Below, in pieces: positions 1 to 16,653 of a DNA stretch of 16,653 nucleotides. The notes under the pieces are model-generated. The model had not been told where the DNA came from, did no database searches, and was given only the letters and a program-made list of their open reading frames with translations. The position numbers were made by a program, and so were the translations under genes. The stretch's first letter is position 1; each line of letters begins with the position of its first letter. Source of the stretch: Gordonia westfalica (GTDB lineage Bacteria; Actinomycetota; Actinomycetes; Mycobacteriales; Mycobacteriaceae); contig NZ_FNLM01000002.1 of the NCBI RefSeq assembly GCF_900105725.1, positions 1 through 16,653 of the forward strand, given 5' to 3'.

Positions 1-30
1 AGGATAAGCCGTCAGTGCGACGACCCGAGA

Positions 31-36
31 TAGAAT
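31..36 (+). promoter_or_regulatory. Candidate -10 box of the HNH gene (copy 1)
   Basis: TAGAAT fits the actinobacterial TANNNT -10 consensus and lies about 75 nt upstream of the HNH GTG start. No convincing -35 hexamer is seen at 16-18 nt spacing. The same box is at 8327-8332 (- strand) and 13784-13789 (+ strand). Confidence 0.3.
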
Positions 37-111
37 GGAGCGACCCCGGAGGTGCTACCAACACCAGCCGGGGCCTAACCCACTCGCTTGAAGCACCAAG
101 GAGGGGCTGCC

Positions 112-818
112 GTGAAGGCTACCCGAACCCGACGTCCATGTCCGACATGTGGATCACCCATCGACCGAGGTCCCGGACAGCATGCGTACTGCTCCGACGA
201 ATGTCGCCCATCTGCGAGCACCCCACATGCGACCGCCCTACGCGGGGCATGCAGACGGTGTGCGACTCGCACCGGGTTCAGCTTGATCGCCACGGCGAAC
301 TCCGGCCGGACACGTGGTCGAAGGAATGGGTGTGCGTCGTTTGCGGGGCAGGTGTCCCGAAGGGGTCGGGGCGCCGTAAGCACTGCTCGAGGGGCTGTCA
401 GCAAACCGACTCTCGATACAACGGGCGTCGCCCAACGACGGCGAAATGTCGGCTATGCGGGCAGGACTTCTCCCTACAGCGGCGCACCGGGGCGAGGCTT
501 CAGCGCACCGACACTCAGTGGTGCCGCACCTGCGGTAGAGAATCCCCCGAAGCGCGCCGATATCTGAAGTACGGAATCACCCCGGAGGAGTACGCGGCCG
601 CGATGAATCGGGGCTGCGACATCTGCGGCGAGCGCGTGGGGGCGCTACATATCGACCATGACCACAGCTGCTGCCCTCCACGGAGTAAGCAGTGGCGAAC
701 CTGCGGGCAGTGCGTCCGCGGATTCCTCTGCGGATCGTGCAACCGCGGATTGGGCCTACTGAAGGATGACCCGAACGTGCTGCGAAGCGCGATCGAGTAC
801 CTCGGTCGAAAGGCCTAG
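112..818 (+). pseudogene. HNH endonuclease VII-like protein, copy 1, frame broken by one lost base
   Basis: This is the same gene as the intact copy at 7544-8251. The GTG start at 112 follows an AAGGAGGGG ribosome site with good spacing. A run of four C in copies 2 and 3 is only three C here (207-209), which shifts the frame. Residues up to about 33 are read from the GTG frame. The rest, including the DHDH and C-x2-C-N endonuclease VII motifs, is in the frame that ends at the TAG at 816-818. The break is most likely a sequencing or consensus error and not a true pseudogene. Confidence 0.85.
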
Positions 819-842
819 AAACAGCGCATACATACGGACTCA

Positions 843-881
843 ACGAACACCCCTAAGGCCATGAGCCTCTGGGGTGTTCGT
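843..881 (+). terminator. Hairpin between the HNH and tape measure genes (copy 1)
   Basis: An 11-bp perfect stem (843-853 with 871-881, core GAACACCCC/GGGGTGTTC) is capped by a second 4-bp stem, AGGC/GCCT (856-859 with 865-868). CATTTC follows, a weak T-rich tail. The hairpin sits 25 nt after the HNH stop and ends about 32 nt before the tape measure start. It is probably a Rho-independent terminator or attenuator, and it is nearly symmetric so it could act on both strands. Confidence 0.6.
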
Positions 882-913
882 CATTTCTGGCGGCAAGCAA
901 AGGGGGTGGCAGC

Positions 914-3900
914 GTGGCCACGGAGCTAGGTGTTGCCTACATTTCCATCGTTCCAGAGACGAGCCGTATCGCTCCTGGCATCCGTAACGCGCTCAATGGT
1001 GCTGAACGCGGCGCTGGTGACACTGGGCGTCGCATGGGTCACACGATGTCCACCGCCCTCGGCACGGCGCTGGGGATTGGCGTGTCGAAGGCGGCGGGCG
1101 CAGCATCGAAGGTGCTGCAGGATGCCCTGTCGGCAGGCTACAACCGGATCACCACCCTGGAGAAGGCGGACATCCAGTTCCGCAATATGGGGCTGTCGGC
1201 CGGTGACACGAAGCGTCAGCTTGCCGATCTGAATGACATCGTCACCGGCACCTCGACTTCGCTGGCTGATGCAGCGGCGGCAGCAGCGATGCTGGGCGGT
1301 GCTGGCGTGGCGGCGGGCGACGACATGAACAACGCTGTGAAGGCGTTGGTGAACATCTCTGCGGCCTCTGGCGCCTCGGCGCAGGACATCGGCCTCGTGA
1401 TGATGCAGATCAAGGCGTCGGGCAAGTTGATGGGCTCGGAGGCGTTGCAGCTGGCCCAGCGCGGCGTGCCGATCTATGACCTCATTGCGAAGTCGATCGG
1501 CAAGACGACTGCCGAGGTCCGCACCCTCGGCGAAGAGGGCAAGATCTCGTTCGACCAGGTCGTCACGGCGATCAACCAGGGCACCGGCAACCTCGCGAAG
1601 GAGATGGGCGAGACCCTTCCCGCGAAGCTCGCCAACTTCCGGACCGCGATGGGCCGCCTGTCGGCTGCGGGCATGGAGCCGTTCCTTCTCCGCGCCAAGG
1701 GCGGCGTTGTCGGCCTGACCGAAGCAGTAAACGATCTCACCCCGAAGATGAAGGATTTCGCGCTCGCCGCGGACGCCAAGATCTTCGACCAGTGGGTGCC
1801 GCAGCTCAAGGGTCTGTATGCAACCCTCGAGGGCTCGGGAGCTCTTGATCGAGCGGCCGAAACCTTTACGGCGCTGTGGGATTCACTGATGGAACTCGGT
1901 CCTGCAGCGCGTACGATTGGGGCGGCACTCGCGGAAGCGTCTGCGTCGCTCGGCGTCGGCGGCTGGCAGGTGTTCCTGGCGACGGTCCAGACGGCGTCGG
2001 GGATTCTGCAAGGACTCGCCCCGGTGCTTCAGACTGTCGGCGATCTCATGGAGGCGCATCCGGGTTACGTCACCGCAGCGCTCGCGGCGTGGTTGGCGTT
2101 CCGAACCGTGCCCGCAATCCTGGGGCGCGTCACGACGGCGCTCGGCCCGATGCATACGGGAATCAGTCGTGTCGGAACGGCGTTCGGCGGTGTGCGTCCG
2201 GCAATCGGCAACTTCACCGACGCCTATCGGACCTCGCTTGGCTACATCCGGCAGGCGAACCCGCAGCTCTCGACGGCCGGCGCCCATATCCGCGTCCTTG
2301 GTGCCAACGCGGGAATGGCCGCTTCCGGCGGACTCAGCGCACTACGTGGGGCGGCCGGTGGACTGTCTGCGGCATTGGGCGGCCCTTTGAATATCGCGCT
2401 CATGGCTGGTGCCGCATATCTGATGATGGGCGCGCAGGCTCACGCCGATGCGACGCAGAAGGCGAAGGCTCAGTCGCAGGCGGTGAAGGAGCTTGCGGAG
2501 TCCCAGAGGCTGATGGGTGCCGCTTTCCGTGAGTCCCGCGGTGCCATGAACGATGACACCTGGGCCAAGGCTGCGGAACAGGTTGGGGCGTACCAGAAGA
2601 CGCTGAGCACTGCCGCCGATCAGCACAAGTCGACGTGGGAACAGCTCAAAGAGGTCGGCGGCCTCTTCAAGATGGCATCCGGCTCGAACGAAGTGCTGAA
2701 TGAGAACGCCGAGCGAGCCATGGCGGCTGAAAAGGCGATCCGCGATCTCGGGATGTCCAACGAAGAAGTCGCCCGCTCTCTGTACGGCTCCGACGGACAG
2801 TGGAAGCTGCTTGGTGACCGACTTGCCGCCACTGGCGAGGGCGGCATCATGGCGGCGGGCCAGCTCTCGAAGATCCGTGATGAGTTCATGCGCCAGCGCG
2901 AGGCGGCTGGGCGCGTGGCGCCTGGCGTCTCCGAACTCGGCGAGGCAATGCGCGTCCTGGGCGACAAGACGTCGACCGCGGCGGAGAAGACACGGGCGCT
3001 GAAGTCGGCGCTCGATGCGTTGAACCCCGCCCGCACTGAGGGTGAGGCGATTGCCCGTCACAACGACGTGATGCGTCAGGTTGCTGACTCGACCAAGGAG
3101 GCTATCAACCAGTCTGAGGGGTTCGGTGCGGCGCTCCTGAGTCAGAAGCTGGGCATCGACACGGCAACGAAGAATGGTGCTGCGCTCCGGCAATCGCTGG
3201 TGGACATTGTGGACGCCACAACTGATGCTGCCGCGTCGGGTGCTGATATGACGGAGCGGAATCGTCAGAACCAGGAGGCTCTCGCCCAGTTGGCGCGGCA
3301 GTATGGCCTGACTGGTGAGCAGATCCGTGCCGCTGCAGACAAACTCGGTCTTGATGACGTCGAAGTGACGGTGGCCCTGAAGGGTGCCCCTGAGGCGGTC
3401 CAGCAATTGGCGGCGATCTCCGCCAAGTGGAATGACATGCCGACCCAGAAGACGATGACGATCGACAGTTCGGCGGTTACCAAGGAGACGCAGGGTCTGC
3501 TGGAGCGGCTGGGTGCGACGGTTGAGCGGATTCCGAACACCAATCAGGTGAAGATCACTGCGGATGATGCGGATGCTCGGGCGAAGATTCTGATGGTTAC
3601 GCAGAACATCGCCGTGCTGAATGCGCTGCGGGCGAACCCGAAGGTCGACCTCGACAAGGCTATGTTCGATCTGCGAAATAGTGAGGCCCGGGGAGCGCTT
3701 GAAGGGCTGGATCGTACCGCTGTGTCGCCGGCTGCTGGGCTAGTTATTGACCAGTTGCTGCAGGGCAAAGCCGTGTCGATGGAGCAGCTGAATACCCTCT
3801 CGCAGACCACCGCGAATCCCAAGGTGGATATGGAGATCGCTGCGATTATGCAGAAGCTCGGTCTCATCAACACTGAGCTAGATCGGGCCGCCCGGGAGCG

Positions 3901-4141
3901 TCAGGCATACATCAATGTGCAGACTCGTGGTCTCAACCTCGGCGACACTACCCCGAGTGGCCAGGTGTGGCGCGGTCCCGGTCTGGCGAACAATGCTGAC
4001 GGCTCGGTTCGCCGCTACGCACAGGGCGGTATTCGGGATCTCGAGCAGTATGCGAATGGGAAGTTGCCGAACCAGGCGGTCATCGAGAAGGCGCGCCGAA
4101 CACTCTGGTGCAGTGGGCTGAACCTGGAGAGCTGGTGGTGA
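914..4141 (+). CDS. Tape measure protein, copy 1 (longest reading, C-terminus wrong)
   Basis: The tape measure protein sets tail length during assembly and is ejected into the cell envelope during infection. The GTG start at 914 follows an AAGGGGGTGG ribosome site. The first ~60 residues carry a typical tape measure start (VPETSRIAPGIRNAL). Residues ~75-270 resemble the TMP N-terminal helical domain with Ala/Gly-rich helices. Hydrophobic segments lie near residues 381-400 and 475-508 and are likely membrane-interacting. Long helical, Ala- and Gln-rich stretches follow. The in-frame part ends at VIEKAR (residue ~1060), where one C of a CCC run near 4096 is missing. The last ~14 residues before the TGA are therefore out of frame. 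Copy 2 shows the true continuation, PNTLVQWAEPETG, a motif common in phage tape measures. The gene is the expected partner of the upstream chaperones, although an HNH gene and a lipoprotein gene lie between. Confidence 0.93.
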   Translation: MATELGVAYISIVPETSRIAPGIRNALNGAERGAGDTGRRMGHTMSTALGTALGIGVSKAAGAASKVLQDALSAGYNRITTLEKADIQFRNMGLSAGDTKRQLADLNDIVTGTSTSLADAAAAAAMLGGAGVAAGDDMNNAVKALVNISAASGASAQDIGLVMMQIKASGKLMGSEALQLAQRGVPIYDLIAKSIGKTTAEVRTLGEEGKISFDQVVTAINQGTGNLAKEMGETLPAKLANFRTAMGRLSAAGMEPFLLRAKGGVVGLTEAVNDLTPKMKDFALAADAKIFDQWVPQLKGLYATLEGSGALDRAAETFTALWDSLMELGPAARTIGAALAEASASLGVGGWQVFLATVQTASGILQGLAPVLQTVGDLMEAHPGYVTAALAAWLAFRTVPAILGRVTTALGPMHTGISRVGTAFGGVRPAIGNFTDAYRTSLGYIRQANPQLSTAGAHIRVLGANAGMAASGGLSALRGAAGGLSAALGGPLNIALMAGAAYLMMGAQAHADATQKAKAQSQAVKELAESQRLMGAAFRESRGAMNDDTWAKAAEQVGAYQKTLSTAADQHKSTWEQLKEVGGLFKMASGSNEVLNENAERAMAAEKAIRDLGMSNEEVARSLYGSDGQWKLLGDRLAATGEGGIMAAGQLSKIRDEFMRQREAAGRVAPGVSELGEAMRVLGDKTSTAAEKTRALKSALDALNPARTEGEAIARHNDVMRQVADSTKEAINQSEGFGAALLSQKLGIDTATKNGAALRQSLVDIVDATTDAAASGADMTERNRQNQEALAQLARQYGLTGEQIRAAADKLGLDDVEVTVALKGAPEAVQQLAAISAKWNDMPTQKTMTIDSSAVTKETQGLLERLGATVERIPNTNQVKITADDADARAKILMVTQNIAVLNALRANPKVDLDKAMFDLRNSEARGALEGLDRTAVSPAAGLVIDQLLQGKAVSMEQLNTLSQTTANPKVDMEIAAIMQKLGLINTELDRAARERQAYINVQTRGLNLGDTTPSGQVWRGPGLANNADGSVRRYAQGGIRDLEQYANGKLPNQAVIEKARRTLWCSGLNLESWW

Positions 4142-4145
4142 GGCG

Positions 4146-4229
4146 GCATCCTGCGCGGGGAGCGGGTCGCAGGGTGCGCGAGGATGCTCGGCGAGCGTGG
4201 CGCGGCGTGTGGGGCGCAGAGGGAATGAA
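4146..4229. other. Fold-back loop 1 between the inverted arms
   Basis: These 84 nt lie between the two arms and are present once. Read on the - strand they continue the tape measure gene in frame past GEAF, so they are phage DNA and not adapter sequence. Within the loop GCATCCT (4146-4152) can pair with AGGATGC (4181-4187), extended by GCGC/GCGC (4153-4156 with 4176-4179). A snap-back of the 3' end here, with short similarity to the template (GGATG versus GGAATG), would explain the strand switch. Confidence 0.8.
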
Positions 4230-4573
4230 CGCCTCACACCAGTCTCAGGTTCAGCCCACTGCACCAGAGTGTTCGGGCGCGCCTTCTCGATGACCGCCTG
4301 GTTCGGCAACTTCCCATTCGCATACTGCTCGAGATCCCGAATACCGCCCTGTGCGTAGCGGCGAACCGAGCCGTCAGCATTGTTCGCCAGACCGGGACCG
4401 CGCCACACCTGGCCACTCGGGGTAGTGTCGCCGAGGTTGAGACCACGAGTCTGCACATTGATGTATGCCTGACGCTCCCGGGCGGCCCGATCTAGCTCAG
4501 TGTTGATGAGACCGAGCTTCTGCATAATCGCAGCGATCTCCATATCCACCTTGGACGCGTTCTGCAGAGTACA
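4190..4573 (-). pseudogene. Tape measure protein, copy 2: C-terminal part in a shifted frame
   Basis: This continues the tape measure of copy 2 after an 11-nt discrepancy at about 4553-4572. From KVDMEIAAIMQKLGL on, it reads the same residues as copy 1 through VIEKAR. It then shows the correct continuation PNTLVQWAEPETG, which copy 1 lost. One more missing G near 4236 breaks the frame before GEAF; repairing it gives WAEPETGGEAFIP, a common tape measure motif. The rest of the protein is lost at the fold. Confidence 0.75.
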
Positions 4574-7448
4574 GCTGCTCCATCGACACGGCTTTGCCCT
4601 GCAGCAACTGGTCAATAACTAGCCCAGCAGCCGGCGACACAGCGGTACGATCCAGCCCTTCAAGCGCTCCCCGGGCCTCACTATTTCGCAGATCGAACAT
4701 AGCCTTGTCGAGGTCGACCTTCGGGTTCGCCCGCAGCGCATTCAGCACGGCGATGTTCTGCGTAACCATCAGAATCTTCGCCCGAGCATCCGCATCATCC
4801 GCAGTGATCTTCACCTGATTGGTGTTCGGAATCCGCTCAACCGTCGCACCCAGCCGCTCCAGCAGACCCTGCGTCTCCTTGGTAACCGCCGAACTGTCGA
4901 TCGTCATCGTCTTCTGGGTCGGCATGTCATTCCACTTGGCGGAGATCGCCGCCAATTGCTGGACCGCCTCAGGGGCACCCTTCAGGGCCACCGTCACTTC
5001 GACGTCATCAAGACCGAGTTTGTCTGCAGCGGCACGGATCTGCTCACCAGTCAGGCCATACTGCCGCGCCAACTGGGCGAGAGCCTCCTGGTTCTGACGA
5101 TTCCGCTCCGTCATATCAGCACCCGACGCGGCAGCATCAGTTGTGGCGTCCACAATGTCCACCAGCGATTGCCGGAGCGCAGCACCATTCTTCGTTGCCG
5201 TGTCGATGCCCAGCTTCTGACTCAGGAGCGCCGCACCGAACCCCTCAGACTGGTTGATAGCCTCCTTGGTCGAGTCAGCAACCTGACGCATCACGTCGTT
5301 GTGACGGGCAATCGCCTCACCCTCAGTGCGGGCGGGGTTCAACGCATCGAGCGCCGACTTCAGCGCCCGTGTCTTCTCCGCCGCGGTCGACGTCTTGTCG
5401 CCCAGGACGCGCATTGCCTCGCCGAGTTCGGAGACGCCAGGCGCCACGCGCCCAGCCGCCTCGCGCTGGCGCATGAACTCATCACGGATCTTCGAGAGCT
5501 GGCCCGCCGCCATGATGCCGCCCTCGCCAGTGGCGGCAAGTCGGTCACCAAGCAGCTTCCACTGTCCGTCGGAGCCGTACAGAGAGCGGGCGACTTCTTC
5601 GTTGGACATCCCGAGATCGCGGATCGCCTTTTCAGCCGCCATGGCTCGCTCGGCGTTCTCATTCAGCACTTCGTTCGAGCCGGATGCCATCTTGAAGAGG
5701 CCGCCGACCTCTTTGAGCTGTTCCCACGTCGACTTGTGCTGATCGGCGGCAGTGCTCAGCGTCTTCTGGTACGCCCCAACCTGTTCCGCAGCCTTGGCCC
5801 AGGTGTCATCGTTCATGGCACCGCGGGACTCACGGAAAGCGGCACCCATCAGCCTCTGGGACTCCGCAAGCTCCTTCACCGCCTGCGACTGAGCCTTCGC
5901 CTTCTGCGTCGCATCGGCGTGAGCCTGCGCGCCCATCATCAGATATGCGGCACCAGCCATGAGCGCGATATTCAAAGGGCCGCCCAATGCCGCAGACAGT
6001 CCACCGGCCGCCCCACGTAGTGCGCTGAGTCCGCCGGAAGCGGCCATTCCCGCGTTGGCACCAAGGACGCGGATATGGGCGCCGGCCGTCGAGAGCTGCG
6101 GGTTCGCCTGCCGGATGTAGCCAAGCGAGGTCCGATAGGCGTCGGTGAAGTTGCCGATTGCCGGACGCACACCGCCGAACGCCGTTCCGACACGACTGAT
6201 TCCCGTATGCATCGGGCCGAGCGCCGTCGTGACGCGCCCCAGGATTGCGGGCACGGTTCGGAACGCCAACCACGCCGCGAGCGCTGCGGTGACGTAACCC
6301 GGATGCGCCTCCATGAGATCGCCGACAGTCTGAAGCACCGGGGCGAGTCCTTGCAGAATCCCCGACGCCGTCTGGACCGTCGCCAGGAACACCTGCCAGC
6401 CGCCGACGCCGAGCGACGCAGACGCTTCCGCGAGTGCCGCCCCAATCGTACGCGCTGCAGGACCGAGTTCCATCAGTGAATCCCACAGCGCCGTAAAGGT
6501 TTCGGCCGCTCGATCAAGAGCTCCCGAGCCCTCGAGGGTTGCATACAGACCCTTGAGCTGCGGCACCCACTGGTCGAAGATCTTGGCGTCCGCGGCGAGC
6601 GCGAAATCCTTCATCTTCGGGGTGAGATCGTTTACTGCTTCGGTCAGGCCGACAACGCCGCCCTTGGCGCGGAGAAGGAACGGCTCCATGCCCGCAGCCG
6701 ACAGGCGGCCCATCGCGGTCCGGAAGTTGGCGAGCTTCGCGGGAAGGGTCTCGCCCATCTCCTTCGCGAGGTTGCCGGTGCCCTGGTTGATCGCCGTGAC
6801 GACCTGGTCGAACGAGATCTTGCCCTCTTCGCCGAGGGTGCGGACCTCGGCAGTCGTCTTGCCGATCGACTTCGCAATGAGGTCATAGATCGGCACGCCG
6901 CGCTGGGCCAGCTGCAACGCCTCCGAGCCCATCAACTTGCCCGACGCCTTGATCTGCATCATCACGAGGCCGATGTCCTGCGCCGAGGCGCCAGAGGCCG
7001 CAGAGATGTTCACCAACGCCTTCACAGCGTTGTTCATGTCGTCGCCCGCCGCCACGCCAGCACCGCCCAGCATCGCTGCTGCCGCCGCTGCATCAGCCAG
7101 CGAAGTCGAGGTGCCGGTGACGATGTCATTCAGATCGGCAAGCTGACGCTTCGTGTCACCGGCCGACAGCCCCATATTGCGGAACTGGATGTCCGCCTTC
7201 TCCAGGGTGGTGATCCGGTTGTAGCCTGCCGACAGGGCATCCTGCAGCACCTTCGATGCTGCGCCCGCCGCCTTCGACACGCCAATCCCCAGCGCCGTGC
7301 CGAGGGCGGTGGACATCGTGTGACCCATGCGACGCCCAGTGTCACCAGCGCCGCGTTCAGCACCATTGAGCGCGTTACGGATGCCAGGAGCGATACGGCT
7401 CGTCTCTGGAACGATGGAAATGTAGGCAACACCTAGCTCCGTGGCCAC
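4497..7448 (-). CDS. Tape measure protein, copy 2
   Basis: The protein matches copy 1 from residue 1 to about residue 957 (through AVSMEQL). The frame then slips at 4553-4572, where copy 2 has about 19 nt in place of 30, and the last ~25 residues to the stop at 4497 are out of frame. The real gene continues on the - strand to at least the fold at about 4146. The GTG start at 7448 is preceded by the same GGGGGTGG ribosome site as copy 1. This entry and 914-4141 are one gene seen twice. Confidence 0.92.
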   Translation of the reverse strand: MATELGVAYISIVPETSRIAPGIRNALNGAERGAGDTGRRMGHTMSTALGTALGIGVSKAAGAASKVLQDALSAGYNRITTLEKADIQFRNMGLSAGDTKRQLADLNDIVTGTSTSLADAAAAAAMLGGAGVAAGDDMNNAVKALVNISAASGASAQDIGLVMMQIKASGKLMGSEALQLAQRGVPIYDLIAKSIGKTTAEVRTLGEEGKISFDQVVTAINQGTGNLAKEMGETLPAKLANFRTAMGRLSAAGMEPFLLRAKGGVVGLTEAVNDLTPKMKDFALAADAKIFDQWVPQLKGLYATLEGSGALDRAAETFTALWDSLMELGPAARTIGAALAEASASLGVGGWQVFLATVQTASGILQGLAPVLQTVGDLMEAHPGYVTAALAAWLAFRTVPAILGRVTTALGPMHTGISRVGTAFGGVRPAIGNFTDAYRTSLGYIRQANPQLSTAGAHIRVLGANAGMAASGGLSALRGAAGGLSAALGGPLNIALMAGAAYLMMGAQAHADATQKAKAQSQAVKELAESQRLMGAAFRESRGAMNDDTWAKAAEQVGAYQKTLSTAADQHKSTWEQLKEVGGLFKMASGSNEVLNENAERAMAAEKAIRDLGMSNEEVARSLYGSDGQWKLLGDRLAATGEGGIMAAGQLSKIRDEFMRQREAAGRVAPGVSELGEAMRVLGDKTSTAAEKTRALKSALDALNPARTEGEAIARHNDVMRQVADSTKEAINQSEGFGAALLSQKLGIDTATKNGAALRQSLVDIVDATTDAAASGADMTERNRQNQEALAQLARQYGLTGEQIRAAADKLGLDDVEVTVALKGAPEAVQQLAAISAKWNDMPTQKTMTIDSSAVTKETQGLLERLGATVERIPNTNQVKITADDADARAKILMVTQNIAVLNALRANPKVDLDKAMFDLRNSEARGALEGLDRTAVSPAAGLVIDQLLQGKAVSMEQLYSAERVQGGYGDRCDYAEARSHQH

Positions 7449-7480
7449 GCTGCCACCCCCTTTGCTTGCCGCCAGAAATG

Positions 7481-7519
7481 ACGAACACCCCAGAGGCTCA
7501 TGGCCTTAGGGGTGTTCGT
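7481..7519 (-). terminator. Hairpin between the HNH and tape measure genes (copy 2)
   Basis: Same hairpin as at 843-881, read on the - strand: an 11-bp stem plus an inner 4-bp stem, between the HNH stop (7544) and the tape measure start (7448). Confidence 0.6.
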
Positions 7520-7543
7520 TGAGTCCGTATGTATGCGCTGTTT

Positions 7544-8251: not shown

Positions 8252-8326
8252 GGCAGCCCCTCCTTGGTGCTTCAAGCGAGTGGGTTAGGCCCCGGCTGGT
8301 GTTGGTAGCACCTCCGGGGTCGCTCC

Positions 8327-8332: not shown

Positions 8333-8356
8333 TCTCGGGTCGTCGCACTGACGGCT

Positions 8357-8362: not shown

Positions 8363-8368
8363 GTCGAG

Positions 8369-8840: not shown

Positions 8841-9246
8841 CGCATCGACGCCGCGACCGCCCGAGCCTTCTCAGCCTCGCTGGGACCTTCGCCCTCGGTA
8901 GCTTCGGCAGCGTCATCCCGAGGCGGCCCATACCGGGCCGGGAAGTAGATCTCAGGCACTTCGTTAAACGTGGTCAACGCCTGCATGTATCGGAGGTCGG
9001 AAACGATCGTCGCCACCTCCGACAAGAGCATCACAGACGGATCAGACCACAGCCAAGTGTCAGGATTCCATGCCCGGAACAGCTCCATTGCGTGGTCTGT
9101 GCGAGCCCTGCGGACAATAGCCCGCAGGTCAGTCCATGAAAACCAGGGCTTCCCGAGATCCGCAACCTGAGGCCGCGGGAAATCAGGTCGTACTCGATGG
9201 CCTCCCCGTGCTCGTCTAGGAGTCGGCGGAGGCCGAAGATTCCCCC
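8837..9246 (-). CDS. Tail assembly chaperone frameshift extension (T part), copy 2, broken
   Basis: Same gene part as 12871-13278. It is entered by -1 frameshifting at the C run 9242-9246 (G run on the coding strand). One base is missing at about 9160, so only the segment from the internal ATG at 9088 (MELFRAW) reads cleanly to the stop at 8837. The stop overlaps that of the convergent lipoprotein gene. Confidence 0.7.
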
Positions 9247-9646
9247 ACTGTGATGTCAGGATCTTCGAGCTGCTTCTTGATCCACTGGATGGTGCCCTCA
9301 GGGATCTTCGTCATCAGGAGCTTGTACTCGGCAGCCGACACGTACGGCTTGAGCCACCGGAGGGTGACTTCCTTCTCCTCGAAACCCTTCAGGGTTTCCT
9401 CTGCGTCGACCGGGCGCGGCAGCGTCTTCTCCGCGCTGTTGAGGCTGTTCGCCCATTCGGCGATCTTCACATCCGCTTCCCCGAACGGGGTGATCCAGTC
9501 CTGGTACTTCTTGATCTCGGCGGGGTCCATCCACTTGCGCGCGGCATCGACACCAGTACCGGATCGCGCCCGGGGATGGGGACGGCGAACTTCAACAGGT
9601 GATCGTCGGACGAGGGGGCTACTGCGTAGCCTTCGGGAACAGACAT
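9216..9646 (-). CDS. Tail assembly chaperone (G part), copy 2, frame broken near 9540
   Basis: Same gene as the intact copy at 12467-12898. The proper ATG is at 9646 (MSVPEGYAV). One base of a GCCGCCGCGC stretch is missing at about 9537-9544, so the start codon and the KWMDPAEIKK part lie in different frames. An apparent longer start at 9671 (MLKGSW) is in the wrong frame for the N-terminus and should be ignored. Confidence 0.8.
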
Positions 9647-9769
9647 GGTTTGACCAGGAACCTTTCAACATTGGGATAGAACTTCAACCAGGAGCAGCCC
9701 CGGCCTGGCAAAAGGACGCGGCTCCTGGTCAGGGACAACATGACACCCCTTCGCCAGGCCGAGATTGTG

Positions 9770-9800
9770 TGCCCGGGGAGGCTAGATACCTCCCCGGGCA
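9770..9800 (-). terminator. 12-bp perfect hairpin after the major tail protein (copy 2)
   Basis: Same element as at 12313-12343: a TGCCCGGGGAGG stem with its exact complement and a 7-nt loop, starting 7 nt after the stop codon of the major tail protein gene. Confidence 0.65.
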
Positions 9801-9807
9801 AGACGGG

Positions 9808-10401
9808 TCAGCTACCCGAAGTGGCGGCGATGCCGTCCACGTCGCCGAACTCGTCGACGTAGTCGCCGTTGGAGTTGCGGAACGCTCGGATCGTCAACTC
9901 CACGCCCGACGCGTCCTGCGACTCGTCCTTCCACTCCGCGATCTCCGAGACGCGGCCCTTCTCCACGACGTACGTCTTGAACTTCTTGCCGCACTTCGTG
10001 GCGAACACGTGGGCCGACAGCGGAAGCTGCGACGAGTTGTGGCGGACGTGGTAGCGCTGCCCCTTGCCGCCGGCAGCGGGGATGAGGGTGACGTTGTCGT
10101 CACCTGCGACGGTCCGCTTCACCGACGGCAGGTCGACGTCGAGCAGCTTGATCTTGAAGCTGGTGCCGTACTCGGTCTGCACATCGACGTAGTCGCCACC
10201 GTCGAAGTCCTTGACGGTGTTCGAGGTGCGGGTGATGCCGACCGACAGGCCGTCGACCGCCGCGGTTCCGTGGTCCTCGAACGCGGCGTTCAGGTCTTCC
10301 GGCGACTCGACCGGAGCGGTGGGAAGCGTGGTACCCAGAGGTGCCCGCCAGTAGACGCCGCCGTCGAGCGACTGCGCCACGTAAGAGTGTTCGACTGCCA
10401 T
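9808..10401 (-). CDS. Major tail (tube) protein, copy 2
   Basis: Protein of 197 aa, identical to the copy at 11712-12305, where the annotation is given in full. It starts at the ATG at 10401 behind a GAAAGGGG ribosome site. Confidence 0.85.
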   Translation of the reverse strand: MAVEHSYVAQSLDGGVYWRAPLGTTLPTAPVESPEDLNAAFEDHGTAAVDGLSVGITRTSNTVKDFDGGDYVDVQTEYGTSFKIKLLDVDLPSVKRTVAGDDNVTLIPAAGGKGQRYHVRHNSSQLPLSAHVFATKCGKKFKTYVVEKGRVSEIAEWKDESQDASGVELTIRAFRNSNGDYVDEFGDVDGIAATSGS

Positions 10402-10463
10402 TGTTTTGCCCCTTTCAGGCGAGGTGACCAGGAGCCGCGAAAGGGTTATTCAGTTAGGAGACT

Positions 10464-10847
10464 TTAGGTTCGGAGCACGAAGAGTGTCCCGGTGAACTGG
10501 AACCGGGAATGCTTTTCATAGTCCGGGTTGGGATAGTCGGCCAGGCTGTTCATGACCCAGTCGGTTACCCACAGGCCTGCCCATGGGCCGCCCGAGGATG
10601 CAGCCTGGAATCCGTCCGCGATGGTTCCGATCGATTGCTCAGTCCACGCCGTGTCCGGGCTGCCCTTGGGGGTTGAGCCGTACAGTTCGACAAGGATGCG
10701 AGCGCGATCCAGTGAGCGATCCCGTGGGCCGCCGATACGAGAAACCCTCCCGAATCGGGCAGGGTCTTCTGAGACGGTCGTGGAGAACTTCACTCCAGGC
10801 AGCGCCGCTCGGCAGATGGAGAGCGCCGCCAGCGTGGGTGTCGACAT
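10464..10847 (-). CDS. Probable tail terminator protein (intact copy)
   Basis: Protein of 127 aa with ATG at 10847, three nt after the stop of the upstream neck gene, so the two are likely translationally coupled. It begins MSTPTLAALSICRAALPGV. The middle has GRVSRIGGPRD and ARILVELYG, and the C-terminus ends in FQFTGTLFVLRT, a beta-rich pattern common in small tail terminator proteins. Size and position, directly before the major tail protein, fit the protein that caps the tail tube at the head-proximal end once the tape measure length is reached. The call rests mainly on gene order; a head-tail stopper is the alternative. Confidence 0.65.
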   Translation of the reverse strand: MSTPTLAALSICRAALPGVKFSTTVSEDPARFGRVSRIGGPRDRSLDRARILVELYGSTPKGSPDTAWTEQSIGTIADGFQAASSGGPWAGLWVTDWVMNSLADYPNPDYEKHSRFQFTGTLFVLRT

Positions 10848-10850
10848 CAG

Positions 10851-11010
10851 TTATCCGAGAGCCCTGAGGATCGTGTTGTTGCGGGCATTGTCGCGTTGCG
10901 CCTTGTAGTCGGCGGTGACGACAGAGGCACGCCAACGGCCCTGGGGACGTGCCATGCCTGCCCGTGAACCCACCGCGTACGTGCCCTCGCCCATAGCGCT
11001 CGCATCGTCA
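10851..11010 (-). CDS. Head-tail connector (neck) protein, C-terminal fragment
   Basis: The - strand frame ending at the TAA at 10851-10853 reads ADDASAMGEGTYAVGSRAG, then a basic, Gln/Arg-rich tail ending NNTILRALG. Fragments of this shape (acidic DD, then a GT/GS turn, then a basic C-terminus) occur at the end of HK97 gp10-like neck proteins, which sit just upstream of tail terminators. Only about 50 codons are real. The reading frame continues past the fold at about 11031 to 11123, but that part is an inverted-copy artefact. The family call is tentative. Confidence 0.5.
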
Positions 11011-11052
11011 GCAATGCAGACTCGAGCGGGATGGACGCCTCGAGCGATCGCT
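11009..11052. other. Fold-back loop 2 between inverted arms
   Basis: The strand turns here. 10991-11008 (CCATAGCGCTCGCATCGT) reappears inverted, with errors, at 11053-11075. The loop contains CTCGAG twice, about 18 nt apart (near 11021 and 11039), and these can pair with each other. No sequencing adapter is seen. Confidence 0.7.
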
Positions 11053-11246
11053 GACTGAGTGCGAGACGCTATGGGTCGAGGTGCACGTAGACGCGGTGGT
11101 TCACGTGGGCAGTGCATGGTCACGCCTCCCCGGCGCCGTTGGCGTAGCCTCTGTCGTCACCGACCGTACGTAACACAGGCCGCAACGTCGATCAATTGCC
11201 CTGTCATATCCCAGACTACACGATCCTCCAGGGCTCTCGCGGATAA
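11053..11246 (+). pseudogene. Neck protein fragment, corrupted copy 3
   Basis: An error-rich inverted copy of 10851-11008. Blocks such as GGCGCCGTTGGCGTAGCCTC and CCTCTGTCGTCACCG still align with copy 2, but there are many insertions and no frame is open. Read-quality damage, not evolution, is the likely cause. Confidence 0.6.
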
Positions 11247-11249
11247 CTC

Positions 11250-11649
11250 GATCGTCGACACTCCACGGCTCGCGCGCCGCGCTCTCCTCATCTGCCGAGC
11301 GGCGGCTGCTGGAGTGAAGTCTCCACCCGACCGTCTCAGAAGACCCTGCCCGATTCGGGAGGTTTCTCGTATCGGCGGCCCACGGGGATTCGCTCACTGG
11401 ATCGCGCTCGCATCCTTGTCGAACTGTACGGCCTCAAACCCCCAAGGGCAGCCCGGACACGGCGTGGACTGAGCAATCGATCGGAACCATCGCGGACGGA
11501 TTCCAGGCTGCAATCCTCGGGCGGCCCATGGGCAGGCCTGTGGGTAACCGACTGGGTTCATGAACAGCCTGGCCGACTATCCCAACCCGGACTATGAAAA
11601 GCATTCCCGGTTCCAGTTCACCGGGACACTCTTCGTGCTCCGAACCTAA
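11250..11649 (+). pseudogene. Tail terminator, corrupted copy 3
   Basis: A damaged inverted copy of 10464-10847. The start codon region is altered (ATGTCGACAC became ATCGTCGACAC), and several indels lie between 11270 and 11570. From about 11570 (NSLADYPNPDYEK) to the TAA at 11647-11649 it matches copy 2 exactly. Use copy 2 for the protein. Confidence 0.75.
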
Positions 11650-11667
11650 AGTCTCCTAACTGAATAA

Positions 11668-11703
11668 CCCTTTCGCGGCTCCTGGTCACCTCGCCTGAAA
11701 GGG
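11668..11703 (+). promoter_or_regulatory. Hairpin that can mask the ribosome site of the major tail protein gene
   Basis: CCCTTTC (11668-11674) pairs with GAAAGGG (11697-11703). The second arm is the ribosome binding site 8 nt before the ATG at 11712. The loop carries CGCGGCTCCTGGTCA (11674-11688), whose exact reverse complement lies after the gene at 12382-12396. This could be a translational control element. The same arrangement lies on the - strand at about 10410-10445. Confidence 0.4.
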
Positions 11704-11711
11704 GCAAAACA

Positions 11712-12305
11712 ATGGCAGTCGAACACTCTTACGTGGCGCAGTCGCTCGACGGCGGCGTCTACTGGCGGGCACCTCTGGGTACCACGCTTCCCACCGCTCC
11801 GGTCGAGTCGCCGGAAGACCTGAACGCCGCGTTCGAGGACCACGGAACCGCGGCGGTCGACGGCCTGTCGGTCGGCATCACCCGCACCTCGAACACCGTC
11901 AAGGACTTCGACGGTGGCGACTACGTCGATGTGCAGACCGAGTACGGCACCAGCTTCAAGATCAAGCTGCTCGACGTCGACCTGCCGTCGGTGAAGCGGA
12001 CCGTCGCAGGTGACGACAACGTCACCCTCATCCCCGCTGCCGGCGGCAAGGGGCAGCGCTACCACGTCCGCCACAACTCGTCGCAGCTTCCGCTGTCGGC
12101 CCACGTGTTCGCCACGAAGTGCGGCAAGAAGTTCAAGACGTACGTCGTGGAGAAGGGCCGCGTCTCGGAGATCGCGGAGTGGAAGGACGAGTCGCAGGAC
12201 GCGTCGGGCGTGGAGTTGACGATCCGAGCGTTCCGCAACTCCAACGGCGACTACGTCGACGAGTTCGGCGACGTGGACGGCATCGCCGCCACTTCGGGTA
12301 GCTGA
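11712..12305 (+). CDS. Major tail (tube) protein
   Basis: The major tail protein forms the stacked rings of the tail tube. This 197-aa protein starts at an ATG behind GAAAGGGG. The N-terminus, MAVEHSYVAQSLDGGVYWRA, followed by a proline-rich strand and an acidic LNAAFEDHG stretch, is typical of actinophage tube proteins. Beta-rich segments follow: GLSVGITRTSNTVKDF, DYVDVQTEYGTSFKIKLLDV and the C-terminal ELTIRAFRNSNGDYV. A basic KCGKKFK patch lies near residue 140. Size (about 200 aa), position between terminator and chaperones, and the strong hairpin right after it all fit a highly expressed structural gene. It is identical to the copy at 9808-10401. The fold cannot be proved from sequence alone, but the context is strong. 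Confidence 0.85.
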   Translation: MAVEHSYVAQSLDGGVYWRAPLGTTLPTAPVESPEDLNAAFEDHGTAAVDGLSVGITRTSNTVKDFDGGDYVDVQTEYGTSFKIKLLDVDLPSVKRTVAGDDNVTLIPAAGGKGQRYHVRHNSSQLPLSAHVFATKCGKKFKTYVVEKGRVSEIAEWKDESQDASGVELTIRAFRNSNGDYVDEFGDVDGIAATSGS

Positions 12306-12312
12306 CCCGTCT

Positions 12313-12343
12313 TGCCCGGGGAGGTATCTAGCCTCCCCGGGCA
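12313..12343 (+). terminator. 12-bp perfect hairpin after the major tail protein
   Basis: TGCCCGGGGAGG (12313-12324), loop TATCTAG, then CCTCCCCGGGCA (12332-12343), beginning 7 nt after the stop. It is very stable but has no T tract. It may be a partial terminator that lowers expression of the downstream chaperone and tape measure genes, or an mRNA 3' end protector. Confidence 0.65.
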
Positions 12344-12351
12344 CACAATCT

Positions 12352-12462
12352 CGGCCTGGCGAAGGGGTGTCATGTTGTCCCTGACCAGGAGCCGCGTCCT
12401 TTTGCCAGGCCGGGGCTGCTCCTGGTTGAAGTTCTATCCCAATGTTGAAAGGTTCCTGGTCA
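12352..12462 (+). promoter_or_regulatory. Structured leader of the tail chaperone gene (possible pseudoknot)
   Basis: The 161-nt gap between the tail tube and chaperone genes holds two interleaved 9-bp stems: CGGCCTGGC/GCCAGGCCG (12352-12360 with 12404-12412) and ACCAGGAGC/GCTCCTGGT (12384-12392 with 12418-12426). Together they could form an H-type pseudoknot. The element TGACCAGGA (12382-12390) can instead pair with TCCTGGTCA (12454-12462), just before the chaperone ATG at 12467, or with the leader of the tail tube gene. The same sequence is in copy 2. Its function is inferred only. Confidence 0.4.
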
Positions 12463-12466
12463 AACC

Positions 12467-12898
12467 ATGTCTGTTCCCGAAGGCTACGCAGTAGCCCCCT
12501 CGTCCGACGATCACCTGTTGAAGTTCGCCGTCCCCATCCCCGGGCGCGATCCGGTACTGGTGTCGATGCCGCCGCGCAAGTGGATGGACCCCGCCGAGAT
12601 CAAGAAGTACCAGGACTGGATCACCCCGTTCGGGGAAGCGGATGTGAAGATCGCCGAATGGGCGAACAGCCTCAACAGCGCGGAGAAGACGCTGCCGCGC
12701 CCGGTCGACGCAGAGGAAACCCTGAAGGGTTTCGAGGAGAAGGAAGTCACCCTCCGGTGGCTCAAGCCGTACGTGTCGGCTGCCGAGTACAAGCTCCTGA
12801 TGACGAAGATCCCTGAGGGCACCATCCAGTGGATCAAGAAGCAGCTCGAAGATCCTGACATCACAGTGGGGGAATCTTCGGCCTCCGCCGACTCCTAG
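12467..12898 (+). CDS. Tail assembly chaperone (G part, intact copy)
   Basis: Protein of 143 aa with ATG at 12467. In siphophages the gene just before the tape measure encodes a chaperone that binds the tape measure protein and keeps it soluble, and a frameshifted longer form recruits tube subunits. The protein starts MSVPEGYAVAPSSDDHLLKF and has a helical, acidic body (WMDPAEIKKYQDWITPFG, the LKGFEEKEVTLRWLKPYV region, WIKKQLEDPDITVGE). It ends in a short Ser/Ala tail before a TAG. A GGGGGAA run eight codons before the stop lets ribosomes slip into the -1 frame. The ribosome site is weak: GAAAGG is 15 nt away. Copy 2 has a one-base loss, so this copy should be used. Confidence 0.88.
   Translation: MSVPEGYAVAPSSDDHLLKFAVPIPGRDPVLVSMPPRKWMDPAEIKKYQDWITPFGEADVKIAEWANSLNSAEKTLPRPVDAEETLKGFEEKEVTLRWLKPYVSAAEYKLLMTKIPEGTIQWIKKQLEDPDITVGESSASADS
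12868..12874 (+). promoter_or_regulatory. -1 programmed frameshift site of the tail chaperone
   Basis: GGGGGAA at the codons GTG GGG GAA. Slipping back one base on GGG gives GGG GGA, and the new frame reads GIFGLRRLLDEHGEAIEYD onward without a stop to 13278. The site lies just before the zero-frame stop at 12896-12898, as in other siphophage chaperone pairs. The copy 2 equivalent is at 9240-9246. Confidence 0.75.
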
Positions 12899-13278
12899 AC
12901 GAGCACGGGGAGGCCATCGAGTACGACCTGATTTCCCGCGGCCTCAGGTTGCGGGATCTCGGGAAGCCCTGGTTTTCATGGACTGACCTGCGGGCTATTG
13001 TCCGCAGGGCTCGCACAGACCACGCAATGGAGCTGTTCCGGGCATGGAATCCTGACACTTGGCTGTGGTCTGATCCGTCTGTGATGCTCTTGTCGGAGGT
13101 GGCGACGATCGTTTCCGACCTCCGATACATGCAGGCGTTGACCACGTTTAACGAAGTGCCTGAGATCTACTTCCCGGCCCGGTATGGGCCGCCTCGGGAT
13201 GACGCTGCCGAAGCTACCGAGGGCGAAGGTCCCAGCGAGGCTGAGAAGGCTCGGGCGGTCGCGGCGTCGATGCGCTAG
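12871..13278 (+). CDS. Tail assembly chaperone frameshift extension (T part)
   Basis: This frame has no stop from the slippery run to the TAG at 13276-13278. It adds about 135 residues to the first 135 of the chaperone, for a ~270-aa fusion. The extension opens with LLDEHGEAIEYDLISRGLRL, then RDLGKPWFSWTDL and RAWNPDTWLW, the pattern seen in actinophage chaperone C-terminal parts. It ends with an acidic, Ala/Glu-rich tail. An independent start is unlikely: the first in-frame start-like codon (12949) has no ribosome site and would remove the LDEHGEAIEYD block. The stop shares a CTAG with the convergent lipoprotein stop. Confidence 0.82.
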   Translation, partial: GIFGLRRLLDEHGEAIEYDLISRGLRLRDLGKPWFSWTDLRAIVRRARTDHAMELFRAWNPDTWLWSDPSVMLLSEVATIVSDLRYMQALTTFNEVPEIYFPARYGPPRDDAAEATEGEGPSEAEKARAVAASMR

Positions 13279-13747
13279 ATATCACCGGACTTCACTAGTT
13301 CGCCGCCGAACTGTCCCGCAATCTGGCCTGCCATGACCGCGTTCTGGTCGAGGCTGATCAGCCAGGTTGGTCCCGTTACGTAGTAGTGGCGATCGCCAGT
13401 GATGTCTCCCGTGATGTCAGAGTGCTTTACCGATGCAGCGATTCCCTTCGAGGCGAGGTCTTCTGAGAACCACACACTCAGTCGAGCTTCGGCCGTTGGG
13501 GTTAGTGGGCACGATCCGTGCTCAGCCTTCGGCCCGAGGTTGCGTCAGTAACCAGGCATGGGAAGCCGGCTGAAGTTAGTCCGGCCGCGAGTTGACTCAC
13601 TGACGTGTACGCACCTGCGACTGCAGGGGCAGGTGCGGAGGCCGACGATGTCGCAGGAGCCTTACCGGCCTCGGGGCTTCGGTCGCTGCACCCAGAGGCG
13701 GCGAGGGCGAATGCGATTACTGGGATGGCAATGCATGCACGTTTCAT
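13275..13747 (-). CDS. Secreted lipoprotein, copy 3 (frame broken by one lost base)
   Basis: Same gene as at 8369-8840. Here the CCCC run near 13500 (GGGG on the + strand) is complete, so the downstream frame is open back to the region of the first break. Only the base missing from the GGG-to-GGGG site (CCC on the + strand near 13533) remains. The N-terminal signal and lipobox read from the ATG at 13747. The TAG stop (13277-13275) and the chaperone TAG (13276-13278) lie on opposite strands of one CTAG. Confidence 0.75.
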
Positions 13748-13753
13748 CTCGAC

Positions 13754-13759
13754 AGGATA
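13754..13759 (-). promoter_or_regulatory. Candidate -10 box of the lipoprotein gene (copy 3)
   Basis: TATCCT on the - strand, 6 nt before the ATG at 13747; see the equivalent at 8357-8362. Confidence 0.4.
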
Positions 13760-13783
13760 AGCCGTCAGTGCGACGACCCGAGA

Positions 13784-13789
13784 TAGAAT
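13784..13789 (+). promoter_or_regulatory. Candidate -10 box of the HNH gene (copy 3)
   Basis: TAGAAT, same position relative to the GTG as in the other copies. Confidence 0.3.
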
Positions 13790-13864
13790 GGAGCGACCCC
13801 GGAGGTGCTACCAACACCAGCCGGGGCCTAACCCACTCGCTTGAAGCACCAAGGAGGGGCTGCC

Positions 13865-14570
13865 GTGAAGGCTACCCGAACCCGACGTCCATGTCCGACA
13901 TGTGGATCACCCATCGACCGAGGTCCCGGACAGCATGCGTACTGCTCCGACGAATGTCGCCCCATCTGCGAGCACCCCACATGCGACCGCCCTACGCGGG
14001 CATGCAGACGGTGTGCGACTCGCACCGGGTTCAGCTTGATCGCCACGGCGAACTCCGGCCGGACACGTGGTCGAAGGAATGGGTGTGCGTCGTTTGCGGG
14101 GCAGGTGTCCCGAAGGGGTCGGGGCGCCGTAAGCACTGCTCGAGGGCTGTCAGCAAACCGACTCTCGATACAACGGGCGTCGCCCAACGACGGCGAAATG
14201 TCGGCTATGCGGGCAGGACTTCTCCCTACAGCGGCGCACCGGGGCGAGGCTTCAGCGCACCGACACTCAGTGGTGCCGCACCTGCGGTAGAGAATCCCCC
14301 GAAGCGCGCCGATATCTGAAGTACGGAATCACCCCGGAGGAGTACGCGGCCGCGATGAATCGGGGCTGCGACATCTGCGGCGAGCGCGTGGGGGCGCTAC
14401 ATATCGACCATGACCACAGCTGCTGCCCTCCACGGAGTAAGCAGTGGCGAACCTGCGGGCAGTGCGTCCGCGGATTCCTCTGCGGATCGTGCAACCGCGG
14501 ATTGGGCCTACTGAAGGATGACCCGAACGTGCTGCGAAGCGCGATCGAGTACCTCGGTCGAAAGGCCTAG
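13865..14570 (+). pseudogene. HNH endonuclease VII-like protein, copy 3, frame broken twice
   Basis: The GTG at 13865 follows AAGGAGGGG. Two G runs have each lost one G compared with copy 2 (GCGGGGCATG near 13997 and GAGGGGCTG near 14145), giving two frame shifts. The CCCC run missing in copy 1 is complete here. The C-terminal endonuclease VII part, from MNRGCDICGERVGALHIDHD to the TAG at 14568-14570, is intact. The three copies together confirm the 235-aa protein of copy 2. Confidence 0.85.
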
Positions 14571-14594
14571 AAACAGCGCATACATACGGACTCA

Positions 14595-14633
14595 ACGAAC
14601 ACCCCTAAGGCCATGAGCCTCTGGGGTGTTCGT
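14595..14633 (+). terminator. Hairpin between the HNH and tape measure genes (copy 3)
   Basis: Same 11-bp plus 4-bp hairpin as at 843-881, unchanged in this copy. Confidence 0.6.
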
Positions 14634-14664
14634 CATTTCTGGCGGCAAGCAAAGGGGTGGCAGC

Positions 14665-16653
14665 GTGGCCACGGAGCTAGGTGTTGCCTACATTTCCATC
14701 GTTCCAGAGACGAGCCGTATCGCTCCTGGCATCCGTAACGCGCTCAATGGTGCTGAACGCGGCGCTGGTGACACTGGGCGTCGCATGGGTCACACGATGT
14801 CCACCGCCCTCGGCACGGCGCTGGGATTGGCGTGTCGAAGGCGGCGGGCGCAGCATCGAAGGTGCTGCAGGATGCCCTGTCGGCAGGCTACAACCGGATC
14901 ACCACCCTGGAGAAGGCGGACATCCAGTTCCGCAATATGGGGCTGTCGGCCGGTGACACGAAGCGTCAGCTTGCCGATCTGAATGACATCGTCACCGGCA
15001 CCTCGACTTCGCTGGCTGATGCAGCGGCGGCAGCAGCGATGCTGGGCGGTGCTGGCGTGGCGGCGGGCGACGACATGAACAACGCTGTGAAGGCGTTGGT
15101 GAACATCTCTGCGGCCTCTGGCGCCTCGGCGCAGGACATCGGCCTCGTGATGATGCAGATCAAGGCGTCGGCAAGTTGATGGGCTCGGAGGCGTTGCAGC
15201 TGGCCCAGCGCGGCGTGCCGATCTATGACCTCATTGCGAAGTCGATCGGCAAGACGACTGCCGAGGTCCGCACCCTCGGCGAAGAGGGCAAGATCTCGTT
15301 CGACCAGGTCGTCACGGCGATCAACCAGGGCACCGGCAACCTCGCGAAGGAGATGGGCGAGACCCTTCCCGCGAAGCTCGCCAACTTCCGGACCGCGATG
15401 GGCCGCCTGTCGGCTGCGGGCATGGAGCCGTTCCTTCTCCGCGCCAAGGGCGGCGTTGTCGGCCTGACCGAAGCAGTAAACGATCTCACCCCGAAGATGA
15501 AGGATTTCGCGCTCGCCGCGGACGCCAAGATCTTCGACCAGTGGGTGCCGCAGCTCAAGGGTCTGTATGCAACCCTCGAGGGCTCGGGAGCTCTTGATCG
15601 AGCGGCCGAAACCTTTACGGCGCTGTGGGATTCACTGATGGAACTCGGTCCTGCAGCGCGTACGATTGGGGCGGCACTCGCGGAAGCGTCTGCGTCGCTC
15701 GGCGTCGGCGGCTGGCAGGTGTTCCTGGCGACGGTCCAGACGGCGTCGGGATTCTGCAAGGACTCGCCCCGGTGCTTCAGACTGTCGGCGATCTCATGGA
15801 GGCGCATCCGGGTTACGTCACCGCAGCGCTCGCGGCGTGGTTGGCGTTCCGAACCGTGCCCGCAATCCTGGGGCGCGTCACGACGGCGCTCGGCCCGATG
15901 CATACGGGAATCAGTCGTGTCGGAACGGCGTTCGGCGGTGTGCGTCCGGCAATCGGCAACTTCACCGACGCCTATCGGACCTCGCTTGGCTACATCCGGC
16001 AGGCGAACCCGCAGCTCTCGACGGCCGGCGCCCATATCCGCGTCCTTGTGCCAACGCGGGAATGGCCGCTTCCGGCGGACTCAGCGCACTACGTGGGGCG
16101 GCCGGTGGACTGTCTGCGGCATTGGGCGGCCCTTTGAATATCGCGCTCATGGCTGGTGCCGCATATCTGATGATGGCGCGCAGGCTCACGCCGATGCGAC
16201 GCAGAAGGCGAAGGCTCAGTCGCAGGCGGTGAAGGAGCTTGCGGAGTCCCAGAGGCTGATGGGCCGCTTTCCGTGAGTCCCGCGGTGCCATGAACGATGA
16301 CACCTGGGCCAAGGCTGCGGAACAGGTTGGGGCGTACCAGAAGACGCTGAGCACTGCCGCCGATCAGCACAAGTCGACGTGGAACAGCTCAAAGAGGTCG
16401 GCGGCCTCTTCAAGATGGCATCCGGCTCGAACGAAGTGCTGAATGAGAACGCCGAGCGAGCCATGGCGGCTGAAAAGGCGATCCGCGATCTCGGGATGTC
16501 CAACGAAGAAGTCGCCCGCTCTCTGTACGGCTCCGACGGACAGTGGAAGCTGCTTGGTGACCGACTTGCCGCCACTGCGAGGGCGGCATCATGGCGGCGG
16601 GCCAGCTCTCGAAGATCCGTGATGAGTTCATGCGCCAGCGCGAGGCGGCTGGC
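14665..16653 (+). pseudogene. Tape measure protein, copy 3, many single-base losses, cut by the window end
   Basis: Same gene as 914-2912. The GTG at 14665 is intact, but the frame breaks at about 14823, 15170, 15749, 16048, 16175, 16381 and 16575, each by loss of one G from a G run, and at 16263 by loss of TG. The in-frame segments read the same residues as copy 1; the longest is 15176-15750 (MGSEALQLAQRGV onward). The apparent chimeric ORFs here are frame jumps and not new proteins. The last bases of the window lack one more G. Confidence 0.9.

Follow-up and report, generated by a model that had tools for sequence, protein, structure and literature searches.

We examined a 16,653-nucleotide stretch of DNA from Gordonia westfalica (RefSeq assembly GCF_900105725.1, contig NZ_FNLM01000002.1), here called the window, which is the whole of contig C2 in an assembly of 38 contigs and 6,405,003 bp. 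The window holds one segment from the tail module of a phage, written three times in alternating direction, and we regard it, with a probability of roughly 0.8, as a long-read sequencing or assembly artefact, in which fold-back reads of the phage were kept by the assembler, and not as a real feature of the genome. A sequence-only reading of the window had called it an artefact whose genes should not be counted three times, and this view is supported by the finding of 49 inverted turns in 27 contigs, by their scattered positions and by the breakdown of the sequence where they occur. The same reading had offered either multiple displacement amplification (MDA) or fold-back reads as the source; the latter is favoured by the tight arms, by the coincident ends of five of nine single-turn contigs and by a genome that otherwise falls into two large contigs and a plasmid, and MDA fits less well.

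One phage segment written three times

Comparison of the window with itself by BLASTN gave an inverted match over positions 1-8362 (99.1% identity, 22 mismatches, 52 gaps), a second one over positions 5452-16652 (98.5%, 10 mismatches, 158 gaps) and a direct repeat of 1-2910 at 13754-16652 (99.55%, 0 mismatches, 13 gaps). Near-exact inverted repeats of kilobase scale were judged to need no chance control, and none was used. With C27, a contig of the same assembly, as the phage reference, we placed three passes separated by two turns (Table 1), which together cover a 6.9-kb segment (C27 31.3-38.2 kb) and leave 17 bases of the window outside the matches. Both comparisons bear out what had been read from the sequence, namely a segment of ~6.9 kb present thrice in alternating direction, with inverted pairs and a direct repeat that account for nearly every base. 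The copies had also been said to differ by homopolymer indels, and this holds as well: the inner aligned parts of passes 1, 2 and 3 differ from C27 at 5, 20 and 25 places, respectively, 49 of these 50 differences are indels, and 27 of the 50 fall in runs of at least three nucleotides, which hold 12% of the bases. Because the window is one segment written three times, its repeated genes are to be counted once. The contig may represent two there-and-back reads joined by the assembler, not one molecule read three times.

Phage contigs dominate the assembly

Of the 38 contigs, 35 belong to one phage of about 58.2 kb; they sum to 683,863 bp and make up 10.7% of an assembly that is rated 100% complete and 0.3% contaminated. 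The frame of this phage, 58,170 bp, is a hand sum of C27, C7 7049-10843 and C25 1-12601. The two large contigs, C34 (4.51 Mb) and C36 (1.11 Mb), both carry 16S genes, and the chromosome sequence that we read comprises 80 kb of contig ends. The ends of C30 (108,969 bp) overlap by 7.96 kb, which closes a plasmid at about 101.0 kb; over the 20 kb compared, it is 99.9% identical to pKB1 of G. westfalica (101,016 bp). The assembly may stem from a PacBio project on the type strain. Among the phage contigs, C33 alone includes a sizeable stretch of other DNA, 2,050 bp running on into the chromosome. The start of C34 (1-4187) and the end of C36 (13497-17658 of the end stretch) have a 4.2-kb stretch in common (97.95%), beside the 16S gene near the C36 end, so the other break in the chromosome probably lies at a ribosomal operon.

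Inverted turns are numerous, scattered and tight

Turns were located where two matches on opposite strands, each at least 150 bp long, adjoin, which places shorter passes and same-strand breaks outside the reach of the finder. It returned 49 turns in 27 contigs (C36, at its phage end, and 26 of the 35 phage contigs), with one turn in 10 contigs, two in 12 and three in 5. Their positions on the phage fit a uniform spread (Kolmogorov-Smirnov p = 0.69), no site recurs, and the two directions are balanced, with 24 plus-to-minus (high) and 25 minus-to-plus (low) turns. A phage with hairpin telomeres was rejected, since the turns have no fixed place. A genuine inverted duplication in the chromosome was likewise rejected, none being found in C34 or C36 by two genome searches with phage stretches, in which 40 of 139 and 40 of 89 first-look candidates were scored.

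The two arms of a turn meet at nearly the same place on the phage. Their offset has a median of 47 bp, quartiles of 23 and 95 bp and a maximum of 573 bp, and it is at most 200 bp at 47 of the 49 turns, the exceptions being C10 (573 bp) and C16 (203 bp). Interior passes measure 4.2-11.2 kb (n = 22). Same-strand breaks of at least 30 bp number two in all, one of which spans 136 bp beside a turn of C3. The other, at the start of C36 (6815-7168), 4.2 kb from the turn, is a tandem duplication of ~177-179 bp (copies 96% alike) that is single in the other phage contigs. C28 terminates in a 60-nt stretch of the phage end, inverted and from ~1 kb away, which is too short to enter the turn count. No fold-back contigs of the plasmid, or of the chromosome in the contig ends read, were found.

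These figures bear on MDA, in which phi29 strands would have switched to nearby displaced strands before sequencing and thereby yielded inverted chimeras. Rolling-circle amplification would favour circular phage DNA, and inverted joins far outnumber direct ones here (49 to 2), as they do in MDA, although this ratio is not decisive. Inverted chimeras are the main product of MDA (406 of 475; PMC1855051), several turns per molecule are known (PMC1855051, PMC6218980), and palindromic PacBio reads reach 44-48% from amplified Arabidopsis DNA (PMC6218980). Other findings count against it. Among the 406 inversions, 69 join segments more than 10 kb apart (PMC1855051), whereas none of our 49 exceeds 573 bp, an outcome with a probability of ~1e-4 at that rate. 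Uncorrected amplified data assembled far worse (PMC6218980) than the 4.51 + 1.11 Mb of chromosome and the closed plasmid obtained here, and the unfragmented chromosome argues against whole-genome amplification. Microhomology of 2-21 nt is expected for MDA, and only one of the 49 junctions is clean enough to be examined for it. Neither a record of library amplification nor a genome paper of the strain was found in literature listings. On balance, we consider MDA an unlikely source of the turns.

Consensus is lost at the turns

Measured against the phage contigs, the error is 25.4% within 25 nt of a turn, 17.2% at 25-50 nt and 8.8% at 50-100 nt, and farther away it is 2.4% (200-300 nt), 0.8% (300-400 nt), 0.28% (400-800 nt) and 0.57% (800-1000 nt). 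Control values were ~0.2% at interior points (n = 249, anchored on an exact 30-mer) and 0.7-1.4% at contig ends (n = 67). A single junction in 49 has 15 exact bases on both sides, and 458 of 500 interior 30-mers are exact. In 872,832 bp, made up of the small contigs and the 80 kb of chromosome ends, there are nine homopolymer runs of at least 9 nt, which belong to 8 of the 49 turns: eight of them lie no more than 59 nt from a turn and the ninth (107 G) is 155 nt away. When runs of at least 8 nt are considered, one further run sits outside the turn zones. The only sequence common to turns at different places is homopolymer. The localization of the error and of the long runs indicates that the turns lack consensus support, and this breakdown is what would be expected if ordinary phage reads corrected the arms and nothing else covered the turn, which we take as strong but not absolute evidence. 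The poly-C and poly-G runs, of 9-107 nt, stand at the turn zones C14 11930, C8 18385, C6 7751 and C35 8665, and also at C5 21900 and 21911 and at C9 4857, 11011 and 19457.

The same observations count against the idea that the contigs record real DNA, that is, that DNA of the replicating phage turns into hairpin-capped or zigzag molecules inside the cell, with snap-back priming at arbitrary points on single-stranded ends, and that unamplified reads record them. Turns occur only in phage DNA in the stretches read, the phage end of C36 included, and a true hairpin-ended fragment would also have the coincident ends described below. The assembler, however, would hide chromosomal fold-backs, so the restriction to phage is weak evidence for real hairpins, and there is no preferred turn site, no consensus support and, at some turns, homopolymer junk. 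We regard real hairpins as the least probable of the explanations considered.

Arms of single-turn contigs and passes of multi-turn contigs

In the nine small contigs with a single turn, the distance on the phage between the two contig ends is 1, 3, 11, 16, 19, 73, 414, 2420 and 2674 bp. Judged against the terminal pass lengths of multi-turn contigs, ends no more than 20 bp apart in five of nine contigs have P ~7e-11, and when the two with an end at the phage terminus are left out, three of seven coincide (P 1.6e-6). The turn lies within the central 40-60% in eight of the nine, C17 excepted, as measured on contigs and not on reads. In the five contigs with coincident ends, the arms are best read as both strands of one fragment in succession. 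Together with the tighter offsets and the unfragmented chromosome, these ends set our contigs apart from published MDA chimeras (PMC1855051, PMC6218980).

In fold-back artefact reads, the second alignment lies at most 200 bp away on the other strand and is symmetric about the middle (PMC12870357). Our contigs resemble published fold-back reads (PMC12870357, PMC13141652) in that the second arm returns along the opposite strand from the same site, the turn is central and the positions are scattered. The published ones are single reads, whereas ours are products of the assembler, all from one phage, and often hold two or three turns.

In none of the five three-turn contigs do turns 1 and 3 coincide, the distance between them being 0.9-4.8 kb. 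Back-and-forth reading of a single insert therefore fails for these contigs, whereas MDA could accommodate them and the joining of overlapping fold-back reads would explain them. The former idea corresponds to overlooked adapters, in which the PacBio polymerase would read one insert back and forth past unrecognized adapters, so that a contig would be several passes of a single insert. The 4.2-11.2 kb passes do resemble an insert library, and the window alone would fit. Besides the displaced turns, an outer pass extends past the opposite turn in C6, C10, C20 and C26, and no match to the presumed PacBio adapter sequence was found at any of the 49 turns, with a best score of 14/45 and a control maximum of 18 in 909 windows. 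A search of the turns for remnants of the presumed Oxford Nanopore Technologies (ONT) adapter sequence found none. Overlooked adapters thus seem very improbable to us.

If overlapping fold-back reads were joined, the first and last passes together should be at least as long as the middle one. All 12 two-turn contigs follow this length rule, which random cuts would produce in ~3% of cases by a hand calculation, and their pass lengths weakly prefer the joining of reads. The offset signs of neighbouring turns, counted by hand in 22 pairs (13 the same, 7 opposite, 2 undefined), do not separate one molecule from joined reads.

An excised prophage and a phage terminus in the sample

A 48-bp core is common to the end of C34, where the phage starts, to the start of C36, where it stops, and to C25, where phage sequence flanks it on both sides; the exact core is present in seven small contigs. 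On the C36 side a tRNA-Gly(CCC) begins at the core according to ARAGORN, and on the C34 side ARAGORN read no tRNA. The presence of the core at both chromosome junctions and within phage contigs identifies attL, attR and attP, with a tRNA gene as the site of the prophage. The prophage is inserted at the tRNA-Gly gene, between C34 and C36, and excised attP forms occur in small contigs. In C33 (24627-34370), passes 1 and 2 cross attP and pass 3 goes via the same att core into the chromosome, a mixture that joining of reads by the assembler explains more readily than one molecule does.

Contig ends point to a second landmark, as 6 of the 69 fall within C27 24437-24463, where the maximum in a simulation of 5000 draws was 4. 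Position 24437 lies 49 bp upstream of the ATG of the presumed small terminase gene, the same distance as at the end of the record of the Gordonia phage BearBQ. All six ends are on the left-end side of the phage genome, and among the 69 there is no cluster for a right end. On the other side of the left end, contig coverage is 13 at 12-14 kb and drops to 1-3 at 20-24 kb. The attP forms and the cluster of contig ends show that the excised phage and a phage terminus were both present in the sample.

Origin of the zigzag contigs

We propose that in this lysogen the ~58-kb prophage was excised and some of its DNA ended at the phage terminus, which would have made phage DNA very abundant in the preparation. 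A minority of reads would then have followed one strand of a phage fragment and returned on the other. Their arms would have been corrected by other phage reads, and their turns would have been supported by nothing else. The assembler would have kept these reads as contigs and probably joined overlapping pairs into zigzags such as the window. Fold-back reads would have become contigs only at extreme depth, that is, for the excised phage. Such reads arise without amplification: published rates are 0.5% of PacBio reads in one set (PMC6218980), 0.55-0.6% of reads from genomic DNA with ONT (PMC12870357), and 0.18-7.33% in ligation libraries, with nearly all of them randomly placed (PMC13141652).

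Several points weigh against fold-back reads as the source. The evidence comes from assembled contigs and not from reads. PacBio HiFi data are described as virtually free of fold-backs (PMC12870357), and the lack of adapter remnants at the turns leaves an overlooked adapter unsupported. No fold-back contig of the plasmid, or of the chromosome in the 80 kb of ends read, was found, so that phage abundance is needed as an explanation, and two direct discontinuities (C3 and C36) exist besides the inverted turns. The arms of C17 and C32 are unequal, by 2674 and 2420 bp, respectively. Finally, consensus could also break down over a true palindrome, which may hinder polishing.

Genes of the repeated segment

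The genes of the window, which form a tail module of the siphophage kind, are those for the tail terminator, the major tail protein, two chaperone frames, a lipoprotein-like protein on the reverse strand, an HNH protein of the endonuclease VII type and the tape measure protein. Positions of the copies are collected in Table 1. The open frame of the tape measure gene has 1811 aa in C15. No intact tail terminator frame is among the listed frames of pass 3, and a tRNA search of the window found none.

Table 1. Passes, turns and gene copies in the 16,653-nt window.
Feature	Position	Strand	Remarks
Pass 1	1-4194	+	C27 34033-38225, 99.4% (BLASTN)
Pass 2	4211-11068	-	C27 38190-31336, 99.46% (BLASTN)
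Pass 3	11003-16652	+	C27 31343-36940, 98.3%, 88 gaps, most indels of the three passes (BLASTN)
Turn 1	4146-4229, best split 4210		Arms offset by 50 bp; poorly supported sequence; the final 50 nt of arm 1 hold 15 errors
Turn 2	11003-11068, best split 11054		Arms offset by 33 bp; matches with errors on both arms
Endonuclease VII-type gene, pass 1 copy	3-818	+	5' part in a different frame
Tape measure, pass 1 copy	914-4141	+	3' end altered by the turn
Tape measure protein, pass 2 copy	4497-7448	-	983 aa, altered and cut near the turn; PF20155 E 3.6e-24, phrog_10780
Endonuclease VII-type HNH protein, pass 2 copy	7544-8275	-	243 aa; PF02945 E 4.4e-18, phrog_2914 E 8.2e-26
Lipoprotein-like gene start, frameshifted, pass 2 copy	8369-8614	+	157 aa in C27
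Major tail protein, pass 2 copy	9808-10401	-	197 aa; phrog_117 E 1.6e-33
Tail terminator, pass 2 copy	10464-10847	-	127 aa; phrog_123 E 5.6e-12
Major tail protein, pass 3 copy	11712-12305	+	Second open frame
Two tail assembly chaperone frames, pass 3 copy	12467-12898, 12949-13278	+	phrog_23607 E 7e-4, phrog_28033 E 6e-17
Lipoprotein-like gene, pass 3 copy	13502-13747	-	157 aa in C27
Tape measure, pass 3 copy	14665-16652	+	Indels break the gene into several frames

The nearest phage records are the Gordonia phages BearBQ, Birdsong and ODay, with ~74% amino acid identity in the tape measure protein; across the 12 best records, its identity is 71-74% with 98% of the query covered, and the relatives are Gordonia siphophages such as BearBQ, ODay, Apricot and Lucky10. 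BearBQ has the tail terminator, major tail, chaperone and tape measure genes in the same order. Unlike its annotation, the phage described here has the endonuclease VII-type gene directly before the tape measure gene, and unlike Gordonia phage records such as BearBQ, it resides in the genome of the sequenced strain as a prophage capable of excision. The tape measure family (E 1e-30) is found in 12 of 59 genomes of the genus, this one included, with 16 matches here and 1 or 2 in each of the other 11; scoring covered up to 14 first-look candidates in each genome. The multiplicity of the tape measure gene is specific to this assembly.

The whole lipoprotein-like frame (C27 33553-34026, minus strand) lies between the tail chaperone genes and the tape measure gene and encodes 157 aa, with a lipobox recognized by eye. 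A search of a protein database yielded one relative, and 50,697 phage records contained none. In the same slot, BearBQ and LonelyBoi have other reverse-strand lipoprotein-like genes (that of BearBQ is unrelated by BLASTP), Apricot and Lucky10 have a small membrane-protein-like gene, and ODay and Ecliptus have no annotated reverse-strand gene. This slot perhaps accommodates genes with surface or exclusion functions that the prophage expresses.

Implications

Counts of genes, of prophages and of copy number, as well as lists of novel open reading frames, would be wrong if drawn from this assembly, with its 35 artefactual or redundant phage contigs, and the zigzags among them might be taken into viral databases as if they were palindromic phage genomes. 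The poly-C and poly-G runs might serve as a simple marker by which to spot fold-back contigs when other assemblies are screened. The same phage contigs also make clear that the prophage leaves the chromosome and that its two ends become joined, a genuine and useful piece of information on this strain.

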